Part shown: positions 5,458-50,449 of the stretch, in pieces
Layout of the letters: the number at the start of each line of letters is the position of its first letter
Position numbering within the stretch: position 1 is the first letter of the stretch
Origin: Anaeromusa acidaminophila DSM 3853
GTDB lineage: Bacteria > Bacillota > Negativicutes > Anaeromusales > Anaeromusaceae
Length of the DNA stretch: 64,000 nt
Direction: 5' to 3'
Assembly (NCBI RefSeq): GCF_000374545.1
Contig: NZ_KB894588.1
Coordinates: 1-64,000 of the forward strand
Notes under the pieces: model-generated
Database searches by the model: none
What the model saw: the letters and a program-made list of their open reading frames with translations, nothing else
What the model was told of the DNA's origin: nothing
Translations under genes and position numbers: made by a program

Positions 5458-5704
5458 ACATAAAAGCCCCCCGTCCCGGAAAGGGACGAGAGGCTATTTT
5501 CCCGTGGTACCACCCTTGTGACCGCCATAGCGGCCGCTTGCGGACACAGTAACGCGTGTCATACGGAAAACGACACATTATAGCCGTTTTCAGCTCCAGA
5601 ATGATCTTCCGCACACTGCTTCAGCCGGGCTCCCACCCTTCCCGGTTCGCTGCGTTCCACCTGCATGCGTACTGTTTCCTTCATTGCCGATTCTGCATAT
5701 TTGA
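5458..5704 (-). promoter_or_regulatory. T-box leader, isoleucine specific
   Basis: The ileS leader carries the T-box core AGGGTGGTACCACG at 5503-5516, followed by a terminator (5464-5494) ending in CTTTTA. Stem I closes with GCAGAAT pairing ATTCTG; immediately before the 3' strand lies ATC at 5603-5605, an isoleucine codon in the specifier position, followed by A as expected. Uncharged tRNA-Ile should pair with it and let transcription continue into ileS. Confidence 0.93.
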
Positions 5705-35633: not shown

Positions 35634-35657
35634 CAAATTAAATCACCTCTCTTTAAA

Positions 35658-35778
35658 CTCCTGCCTCCGAGGTTAGCTGTCGGGTTCGGGTTGAAAAAGA
35701 GAGAGAAAATACCCTTCCGCCTAGGCGGATTCACCCCATAAGTTGGTTCCCCCGTACCATAAATGGATTCGGCAGTAT
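35658..35778 (-). promoter_or_regulatory. Cyclic di-AMP riboswitch (ydaO/yuaA class)
   Basis: The leader holds the family landmarks in order: CTGCCGAATCC, GGTACGGGGGAACCAA, TGGGGTGAATCC, an AGGGT segment, AACCCGAACCCGACAGCTAACC, and the closing GGAGGCAG, with CTGCC and GGCAG forming P1. This motif lies before cell-wall and osmotic genes and usually turns them off at high c-di-AMP. The gene begins 25 bases downstream. Confidence 0.94.
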
Positions 35779-35784
35779 ATTTTC

Positions 35785-48387: not shown

Positions 48388-48463
48388 TGGCAGGGGCAGA
48401 AGGACTTGAACCCTCAACCAACGGTTTTGGAGACCGCTACTCTACCAATTGAGCTATACCCCT
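48388..48463 (-). tRNA. tRNA-Trp (CCA)
   Basis: 76 bases with encoded CCA; acceptor AGGGGTA/TGCCCCT; anticodon stem GCGGT/ACCGT with loop CTCCAAA (anticodon CCA). Own promoter and terminator. Confidence 0.97.
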
Positions 48464-48682: not shown

Positions 48683-48711
48683 TTGACAATGTCTTCATTG
48701 GTTGCGATAAT
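48683..48711 (+). promoter_or_regulatory. Promoter of the T-box/YkvI transcript
   Basis: TTGACA (48683-48688), 17-base spacer, GATAAT (48706-48711). The stretch 48540-48682 before it shows nothing convincing. Confidence 0.85.
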
Positions 48712-48717
48712 GTATAC

Positions 48718-49036
48718 ATTCAACGAATGATGTTGCAGCTGCTTTTACATCTTTGTTAACTAAAATTTTATGATTTTCAAAAGCGATGATCGGAACAAAG
48801 CAAAATCTACGTTCTTGCAGAGAGCCGGTGGTTGGTGAAAACCGGCAGAAACGATTCTTGCGAAACTCATCCGGGAGCTCTAAAGCTGAATACGCATTGG
48901 CGTTTAGGCTTCAGCGATTGTCCACGTTACGGGCATCAGCCATTTTACGGCTGAGTAATGAGCCACAAACATAGGGTGGTACCGCGATCTTCTCGCCCCT
49001 ATTGACACAACCGTGTCAATAGGGGCTTATTTTATT
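48718..49036 (+). promoter_or_regulatory. T-box leader, probably leucine specific
   Basis: T-box core AGGGTGGTACCGCG at 48973-48986, followed by a strong terminator (48995-49026, 14-base perfect arms) with TTATTTTATT. A GCCGG apical stem with GTTGGTG loop and an AG bulge mark stem I. The 3' side reads GCGAAACTCATCCGGGAGCT, which aligns with the ileS leader GCGGAAGATCATTCTGGAGCT; the codon in the specifier position is CTC (48866-48868), followed by A. UCGGA near the 5' end pairs with UCCGG just after. CTC is leucine; the alignment, not a full fold, supports this. Confidence 0.85.
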
Positions 49037-49064
49037 CTGCGTACTTTTAAGGAGGACTTTTAAC

Positions 49065-50219
49065 ATGAACAATCAAAAAACCGGCTCCATTGGCGCAGCT
49101 GCAGCCATGGCGGCCGTCTGGTTTGCAACCCATTGCGGAGGCGGCTTCGCCACAGGCAACCAAGAAGTAAATTTCTTTGTAAAATACGGCTGGTACTCGG
49201 TATTTCTTCCCGTCATCGCTATGCTCATCTTAGGCTGGGGCCACCGAAACGCCCTCGTCTTAGCCAAAGATTATCAAACTTATGATTACAAAAGCTTTGG
49301 CGACGCCCTATTTCATCCTTATGAAAAATATTTCTCTCTCGTTTTTGAAATCGGCTATATTTTACTCTTCATCTGCGGCGTCAGCACCTCTATTGCAGGC
49401 TCCGGCTCCCTGTTGCAAAGCTCTTTGGGAATTCCTTATGGCATTGGCATTGTCGCCATCGGCGCCATCATCTTGTTATTGACCATTTTCGGCACCGACC
49501 TCGTCATCAAAGCCTTGAGCTTCAAAACTTACTTCTTAATCGCAACACTGCTGACCCTCTGCATCCTTGGCCTGCAAATGGGCGCCCTCAACTTTGAACG
49601 CATCATCACAACCCAAGAAACCTTCGGCCATAGTTTCGGCGATGCAGTCTGGTTCACCATGATCTACATAGGCTTTCAGGCTTTCACCGTCTTGCCGATT
49701 ATTTCAGTCTCTCAGCACATTAAAACCACTAGAGACTGTAACTGGTTTATGCTCTTTGGCACGCTGTTAAACGGCTTGTTCCTGGTCGCTGTGTGCATCA
49801 TGCTGCTGGGCTTCAGCCCGGAAGTACTCAATCAAACATTACCCGTGTATTTCGTTTGCACACAGCTAGACTTACCTTGGCTGAAGATCCTTTATACCAC
49901 CATTCTCTTCGTCGCCCTGCTGGGAACGGCTATCTCTCTGATTTTTTCAGCAGTAGCTCGTTTCGAACCGGAATTAAACCGCCGCAACATTTTTCAGTCG
50001 GTGCGGTTGCGTCGTGTTGCCATTTCGGTAGTTTCTATTATTCTCTGCACAAGCATCTCCGTTTTTGGATTGACAAATATCGTTGTAAAAGGCTACGGTT
50101 CTGTGGGCTACATCGGTCTGCTCTTCGTCTTGCTTCCTGAAATCGTAGTGGGCACCATTAAAATCCGCAATAACGAACGTCGCCGCAAAGAGCAAGAACA
50201 GCAACGCCTGGGCGCTTAA
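49065..50219 (+). CDS. YkvI-type membrane transporter
   Basis: A 384-residue integral membrane protein with about ten hydrophobic segments, of the YkvI family within the APC/amino-acid-transporter-like fold. The start GAAAAMAAVWFATHCGGGFATGNQ carries the unwound-helix glycines (GGGFATG) seen in this fold. The C-terminus is a basic/Gln-rich cytoplasmic tail. Substrate is not known; control by an apparent leucine T-box suggests leucine or branched-chain amino acid transport. ATG follows AAGGAGGA. Confidence 0.88.
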   Translation: MNNQKTGSIGAAAAMAAVWFATHCGGGFATGNQEVNFFVKYGWYSVFLPVIAMLILGWGHRNALVLAKDYQTYDYKSFGDALFHPYEKYFSLVFEIGYILLFICGVSTSIAGSGSLLQSSLGIPYGIGIVAIGAIILLLTIFGTDLVIKALSFKTYFLIATLLTLCILGLQMGALNFERIITTQETFGHSFGDAVWFTMIYIGFQAFTVLPIISVSQHIKTTRDCNWFMLFGTLLNGLFLVAVCIMLLGFSPEVLNQTLPVYFVCTQLDLPWLKILYTTILFVALLGTAISLIFSAVARFEPELNRRNIFQSVRLRRVAISVVSIILCTSISVFGLTNIVVKGYGSVGYIGLLFVLLPEIVVGTIKIRNNERRRKEQEQQRLGA

Positions 50220-50374: not shown

Positions 50375-50449
50375 TGGAGCGGAAGACGAGATTCGAACTC
50401 GCGACCCTCGCCTTGGCAAGGCGATGCTCTACCACTGAGCCACTTCCGC
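50375..50449 (-). tRNA. tRNA-Gly (GCC), copy 2
   Basis: Identical in all 75 bases to 46005-46079. Preceded by its own promoter and followed by a terminator. Confidence 0.97.

Follow-up and report, generated by a model that had tools for sequence, protein, structure and literature searches.

The Locus and Its Leader RNA

The window, a stretch of 64,000 nucleotides from Anaeromusa acidaminophila DSM 3853, carries on its forward strand an open reading frame (49065-50219, with its ATG at 49065) for a 384-amino-acid multi-helix membrane protein, a remote YkvI-type transporter, preceded on the same strand by the ribosome-binding site AAGGAGG, read directly at 49049-49055. The gene stands single, being flanked by a tRNA-Trp gene (48388-48463) and a convergent tRNA-Gly gene (50375-50449), both on the reverse strand. 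Upstream of it, on the forward strand as are all elements described below, a T-box leader RNA of the transcription-attenuating type was matched by the Rfam covariance model RF00230 at 48777-49003, scoring 110.8 bits where the gathering score is 93, with an E-value of 1.2e-23 and model positions 1-219 of 219 covered. Regarding the promoter, a sigma-70-like site (TTGACA, 17 bases, GATAAT, with the extended -10 TG) was found at 48683-48711 by a consensus scan, agreeing at 11 of 12 positions, and transcription would then be expected to start near 48718. Such sites are pattern matches, four being found in the region versus 2.6 in shuffled sequence, and the remaining three agree with the consensus at 9 of 12 positions.

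The leader comprises a stem I with the specifier loop (48782-48879), seen in the fold and with flanking helices covarying in 14 orthologous leaders, followed by an antiterminator (48971-49002) formed by AUAGGG/CCCUAU and GCGA/UCGC, which is supported by the model alignment, covariation and fold. The antiterminator holds a UGGU bulge (48977-48980), complementary to the ACCA end of tRNA-Leu, A73 being present in the tRNA-Leu genes surveyed. An intrinsic terminator, with a stem of 14 bp and then a T-rich stretch, lies at 48995-49026, as detected by a terminator scan and by folding (-27.0 kcal/mol, z -8.96); the scan gave seven terminator-like sites versus 2.2 in shuffles. As CCCUAU is common to both, antiterminator and terminator are mutually exclusive. 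With a full-length match above the gathering score and the exclusive hairpins found, the original prediction of a complete T-box and terminator in the leader was borne out. Other copies of the terminator dyad were found at three places in the genome versus one for a reversed control, which argues against its being a repeat element. Elsewhere in the window, a c-di-AMP riboswitch was also matched (35647-35784, reverse strand, 94.8 bits).

Covariation was assessed in 14 distinct leaders of close relatives (clade A, described below), with G002, whose leader is separated from that of G001 by two differences in 290 places, left out. Among 27 assumed pairs, 97.6% of the cells were paired and eight pairs had changes on both sides (17 cells), values that 0 of 500 shuffles reached for paired cells, double-change pairs or cells, although the assumed pairs were those of the window sequence itself and relatedness among the rows inflates shuffle comparisons of this kind. 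Slid versions of the structure were only 38-48% paired, the double changes occur in both helices flanking the specifier loop, and the number of further pair types was not in excess, 397 of 500 shuffles being as high. Little covariation is visible in the terminator taken by itself, as 11 of the 13 pairs counted there are invariant in the 14 orthologous leaders. When the whole leader is folded unconstrained, the terminator appears and the expected stem I does not (z -3.76); only the excised stem I takes its expected form, with an energy no better than that of shuffles (115 of 200 at least as good), so that its case rests on the model match and the covariation.

As a separate observation on the terminator, eleven of its base pairs, CCCCUAUUGAC/GUCAAUAGGGG, show no difference among all 14 clade A leaders compared, which come from several families, and the antiterminator constrains only about half of these invariant pairs.

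Specifier Codon and tRNA Partner

Alignment to the covariance model gives GAA-A-CUC-A-UCCGG as the 3' side of the specifier loop. Folding of 48780-48880 gives UCGGA/UCCGG below the loop and GCAA/UUGC above it, with GAAACUCA unpaired between, which places CUC 2-4 bases from the end of the bulge, the position that corresponds to frame +0 in the TBDB description (PMC7778990), where CUC is also given as the specifier of 74% of leucine T-boxes. The leucine codon CUC is thus assigned to 48866-48868, followed by A48869, by model alignment, fold and frame calibration. It had first been called by comparison with an ileS T-box in the same window, as a CTC followed by A and a UCCGG stem; that T-box is real (5479-5693, reverse strand, 90.9 bits, just below the gathering score, specifier ATC), alignment and stem-I fold agree with the call, and the covariance-model fold with specifier call proposed as a check gave CUC at +0, and neither ACU nor UCA.

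The frame was calibrated within the genome, where 24 T-boxes were found at an E-value of 0.001 or better, their codons being taken from printed model alignments in 21 and, for the T-box at 1501 of L014 and those of L023 and L024, by the same stem rule. Considering the leaders of aminoacyl-tRNA synthetase genes, as named by NCBIfam, the frame +0 reads CUC for leuS, UAC for tyrS, GUC for valS, AUC for ileS, UUC for pheS, ACC for thrS, GGC for glyQ and UGC for cysS (second in its operon), so that 8 of 8 are correct at +0 and 0 of 8 at -1 or +1.

In a survey of tRNA genes, ARAGORN was applied to the best 30 of 55 tRNA-match loci, to 11 further stretches and to the window. It revealed tRNA-Leu(GAG), with at least two genes, and, in the tRNAs surveyed, A73 in six distinct tRNA-Leu, U73 in three tRNA-Thr, G73 in four tRNA-Ser and C73 in tRNA-His; no tRNA so named was found for isoleucine among these best 30 of 55 matches, 11 stretches and window. 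The UGGU bulge pairs with the A73 of tRNA-Leu, and it cannot pair with the U73 of tRNA-Thr and meets the G73 of tRNA-Ser by wobble only. The same rule is followed within the genome by the thrS, glyQ and cys leaders, with UGGA for U73, and by serA, with UGGC for G73, the exceptions being four Trp leaders with UGGU against G73, a G-U wobble of the kind also reported in TBDB (PMC7778990). Judged by these bases, the bulge would exclude threonine, and histidine subject to the caution of TBDB on tRNA-His, and would weakly exclude serine. The proposed assignment to leucine is consequently in agreement with the discriminators, with the presence of tRNA-Leu(GAG), and with the synonymous CUC/CUG change and recurrence in relatives described next.

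Homologs and T-Boxes Within Negativicutes

Relatives of the window protein are common, with a match at an E-value of 0.001 in 96 of 380 genomes of the class. A more restricted search with a 22-row profile (A1) at 1e-50 gave 44 rows in 37 of 379 genomes, corresponding to 43 genes after two pieces in G004 were joined. A T-box was found just upstream of 30 of these and at the operon head for one (G330), and for 12 none was found; the 31 specifiers are 29 for leucine and two for isoleucine. Clade A, with 15 genomes and 73-99% identity, has CUC in 15 of 15 leaders, of which 14 were detected by the covariance model and one (L040) by the core motif only. Clade B, with 11 genomes at about 28-31% identity, has CUC in eight and CUG in three of 11 leaders, five detected by the model and the others by the motif. 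Clade C, at about 23% identity, has four leaders (two of them found by the model) with CUC in two and AUC in two. Two genomes, G324 and G326, each possess two paralogs, one behind an AUC T-box and one behind a CUC T-box, and the specifier of G330 was read by eye as CUC. Across the Leu leaders, only CUC/CUG combines an unchanged amino acid with a frame that is also backed by the synthetase leaders.

The homologs for which no T-box was found are those of G310, G067 (two), G288, G303 (three), G214, G213, G045, G038 and the second copy of G334, within an upstream span of about 1 to 1.5 kb, which operons headed farther off would escape; 11 of the 12 were checked by covariance model and core motif, and G213 by motif in a short upstream stretch. 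Seven of the 12 are at 57-65% identity. At L136 (G337), the sequence scanned is without the core motif, and a model match there reaches 70.1 bits, below the gathering score.

Three other leaders (L104:908-1255, L057 and L219) have a single stem I followed by two tandem antiterminator cores before the transporter or operon, with the codon AUC in L104 and L057 and CUC in L219.

Protein Tree and Homologs Outside the Class

A tree of 63 proteins was built, from which duplicates, fragments and most low-scoring rows had been dropped. All its Leu and Ile rows belong to Negativicutes, and the Leu label changes at least three times across starred branches, which could reflect several gains or one gain and two losses. 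The deep joins are unsure, because long branches meet there.

Outside the class, 398 genomes of the phylum were drawn, and 26 had a match at 1e-20, which gave 26 loci. No T-box was found by core motif near the homolog in 25 of the 26 loci, nor by the model in the 17 of the 26 that were also scanned with it; L148 and L151 have one-mismatch matches to the core motif, without model support. The remaining locus, L162 (G674), has on its reverse strand a T-box core at position 221 that heads a class-I/II aminotransferase gene, and a remote YkvI relative (E 6e-22) begins 32 bases after this gene, in an apparent operon. Its codon, read by eye with the frame uncertain, looks like UUC (Phe) and apparently not Leu. 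The T-box link is therefore not family-wide, since 25 of the 26 outside loci show no T-box near the homolog and L162 is apparently not of the leucine type. As read from this sequence, L162 hints against a strictly branched-chain reading of the superfamily and for a general role as amino acid carriers, and other amino acids may be the substrates in the wider family. On a plasmid of Paraclostridium bifermentans (L139:2932-5848), a homolog with 36% identity adjoins a Glu/Leu/Phe/Val dehydrogenase gene, with no T-box core found by motif.

Relation of the Protein to YkvI

The window protein has no match in NCBIfam and none among sequences of solved structures (PDB), as protein or as profile. In Pfam nothing lies above the cut-off, the sodium:solute symporters being the only family listed at E up to 1 (0.38); for this family (PF00474) the window protein scores 10 bits against a cut-off of 22.8, and four of 22 family members match at an E-value of 0.1 or better, the best at 7.1e-6. 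PF05525 (LIVCS) is not matched by the window protein. With regard to the 5+5 inverted repeat of LeuT-fold transporters, structure models are of low confidence, with a mean pLDDT of 48.0 for the window protein alone and 39.6 with three relatives.

The protein encoded in Bacillus velezensis between motB-motA-clpE and queCDEF, a slot that we take to be the ykvI position, is related to the window protein with an E-value of 5e-7 and 22% identity over 286 positions, and hhalign gives a probability of 98.3%. Both share a glycine-rich GxGFATG region; they differ in that a scan of the Bacillus velezensis locus found no T-box reaching the gathering score. In the tree, Bacillus YkvI and the window protein are divided by a branch supported at 100/100, the deep joins having long branches. 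On sequence grounds, the window protein would belong to the same broad family as Bacillus YkvI without being its ortholog, so the YkvI-family label of the original prediction stands at the superfamily level and fails as a statement of orthology. Because the branches are separate and the similarity is remote, the substrate hypothesis covers the Negativicutes clades and not Bacillus YkvI. YkvI-type membrane proteins presumably correspond to COG3949; no substrate of YkvI was found in the literature, with no paper on YkvI transport by title and none for COG3949. No paper linking YkvI to a T-box was found either, within a partial coverage of the literature, and databases such as TBDB may list the leader.

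Comparison with Known Systems

The switch itself is an ordinary, known kind of T-box. Within the same genome, the leuS T-box (L001) bears the same CUC and UGGU bulge, its gene being a leucyl-tRNA synthetase instead of a transporter. Another T-box (L018) shares with the window leader CUC, the UGGU bulge and the stretch CUCAUCCGGGAGC, and differs in the genes downstream, which by eye are ACT-domain-like and ilvC-like, of branched-chain biosynthesis, the first gene having no NCBIfam match. The T-box of the Bacillus subtilis ilv-leu operon, for which Marta et al. (1996) reportedly described a CUC specifier and leucine-dependent control, is similar in its codon but controls biosynthesis, not transport.

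Regarding transporters, substrate prediction from T-boxes is an established method, as seen in the survey of Wels et al. (PMC2494555), in which the T-box genes of experimentally verified function all agree with their specifier, methionine T-boxes on precursor and cofactor transport are also described, and YkvI is not among the seven carrier families named. The same survey includes yvbW of Bacillus subtilis, where a Leu T-box precedes a gene predicted solely by the specifier to encode a leucine carrier (PMC2494555); YvbW, however, is of the APC family, whereas the window protein is a remote YkvI relative with no Pfam match above the cut-off. BrnQ proteins of the LIVCS family are likewise branched-chain amino acid carriers and, according to that source, sometimes T-box-controlled (PMC2494555), but the window protein is without a match to their model and BrnQ was not found in its genus.

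In detail, BrnQ (PF05525) is present in 10 of 19 genomes tested and was not found in the four of four genomes of the genus of the window. Among clade A genomes, it is present in six of 15 and was not found in nine, one of which is only 83% complete. At the BrnQ loci of relatives, no T-box was found in 15 of 18, those scanned at the gathering score. For this genus, in which no BrnQ was found, the window protein is a candidate leucine uptake carrier.

Proposed Mechanism and Substrate

When leucine is short, the anticodon of uncharged tRNA-Leu(GAG) would bind CUC in the specifier loop of stem I and its ACCA end would bind UGGU in the antiterminator bulge, stabilizing the antiterminator; the terminator at 48995-49026 would then not be formed and the transporter gene would be transcribed, and with charged tRNA-Leu the terminator would form. 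We propose that the product, belonging to a remote YkvI-type clade, is a secondary transporter which takes up leucine and probably other branched-chain amino acids as well. The reading as a whole, a transcription-type leucine T-box controlling a leucine importer of this clade, is assigned a probability of roughly 0.75. As far as sequence can establish them, the leader, codon, exclusive hairpins, tRNA partner and conservation are established, and the regulation is as secure as sequence evidence allows. Induction on leucine starvation would be expected from established T-box biology, and we infer the substrate and the direction of transport from the regulation only. As the pairing of T-box and transporter recurs in related bacteria, leucine or a close relative is probably imported.

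The most likely substrates are leucine or branched-chain amino acids, and a leucine precursor (isovalerate or 2-oxoisocaproate), imported under the control of a real leucine T-box, is possible but unlikely. Consistent with a precursor, another CUC T-box in the genome precedes an 877-amino-acid AMP-binding, acyl-CoA-ligase-like protein; AUC and GUC T-boxes of the same genome precede SBF-type transporters, a family known for carboxylate transport; and aminotransferase genes precede YkvI relatives, of class III in the T-box operon of G330 and of class I/II before the remote relative in G674 (L162). However, the split of paralog leaders between Leu and Ile fits amino acids more simply, and the verified T-box genes in the survey of Wels et al. 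all match their specifier, bar the caveat of methionine precursor and cofactor transport (PMC2494555).

Slightly more doubtful is a carrier of different or broad substrate that, behind a real leucine T-box, is merely part of a leucine starvation response. Homologs for which no T-box was found and the remote relative behind a Phe-like T-box agree with it, as does the precedent of brnQ6 of Bacillus anthracis, which has a leucine T-box upstream although leucine uptake is unaffected in the mutant (PMC8787487). By this analogy, T-box specificity can mislead on substrate, and the brnQ6 case is a real warning; yet the changes of label on the tree within Negativicutes, at least three (maybe one gain and two losses), are each Leu or Ile.

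Other readings of the specifier were set aside by the frame calibration with synthetase leaders, the discriminator bases and the codons of relatives. A switch answering serine through UCA, in the +1 frame, is highly improbable: the +1 codon is UCA in clade A, changed to UCG in two of 15 leaders, so that all 15 would read serine, and tRNA-Ser(UGA) exists, with a G73-U wobble possible as in the four Trp leaders, but the +1 frame misreads 8 of 8 synthetase leaders (that of leuS with the same CUC included), the sole serine leader of the genome, that of serA, has UGGC, and the +1 codon is UGA or UGC in three of 11 clade B leaders. Threonine through ACU, in the -1 frame, is more improbable still, as ACU is retained by 11 of 11 leaders in clade B and by 13 of 15 in clade A, but the other two of the latter have GCU, the -1 frame fails for 8 of 8 synthetase leaders, U73 in all three tRNA-Thr surveyed does not pair with UGGU (the thrS leader has UGGA), and tRNA-Thr(AGU) was not found among the best 30 of 55 tRNA matches, the 11 stretches and the window.

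Returning to the leucine reading, the recurrence of a leucine switch with synonymous codon change, together with an isoleucine switch before a paralog, provides a short list of substrates for a protein without a family model, so that a simple uptake assay becomes worth doing. In a wider sense, the odds appear about even that the Negativicutes relatives of YkvI form a new family of branched-chain carriers, with leucine and isoleucine paralogs and possibly several recruitments of T-boxes, which replaces BrnQ in the genus of the window, within a superfamily hinted by the Phe-like relative to be amino-acid-carrying as a whole.

Other T-Box Loci

The CUC T-box at G000:C2:37794-38045 (reverse strand) precedes L173:7196-9829 (reverse strand), whose 877-amino-acid product combines a xylose-isomerase-like TIM barrel with an AMP-binding domain in one polypeptide; as an idea only, its role might be to activate isovalerate, from which leucine would be made by reductive carboxylation. 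The T-boxes before SBF-type sodium symporter genes in the genome of the window are of Ile (AUC) and Val (GUC) type at L016 and L019. A T-box at L039:3174-3430 (forward strand), read by eye as GUC, is followed by another SBF gene. At L003:1501-1708 (reverse strand), a T-box of UUC (Phe) type that has an additional antiterminator core lies before a sodium:solute symporter gene.
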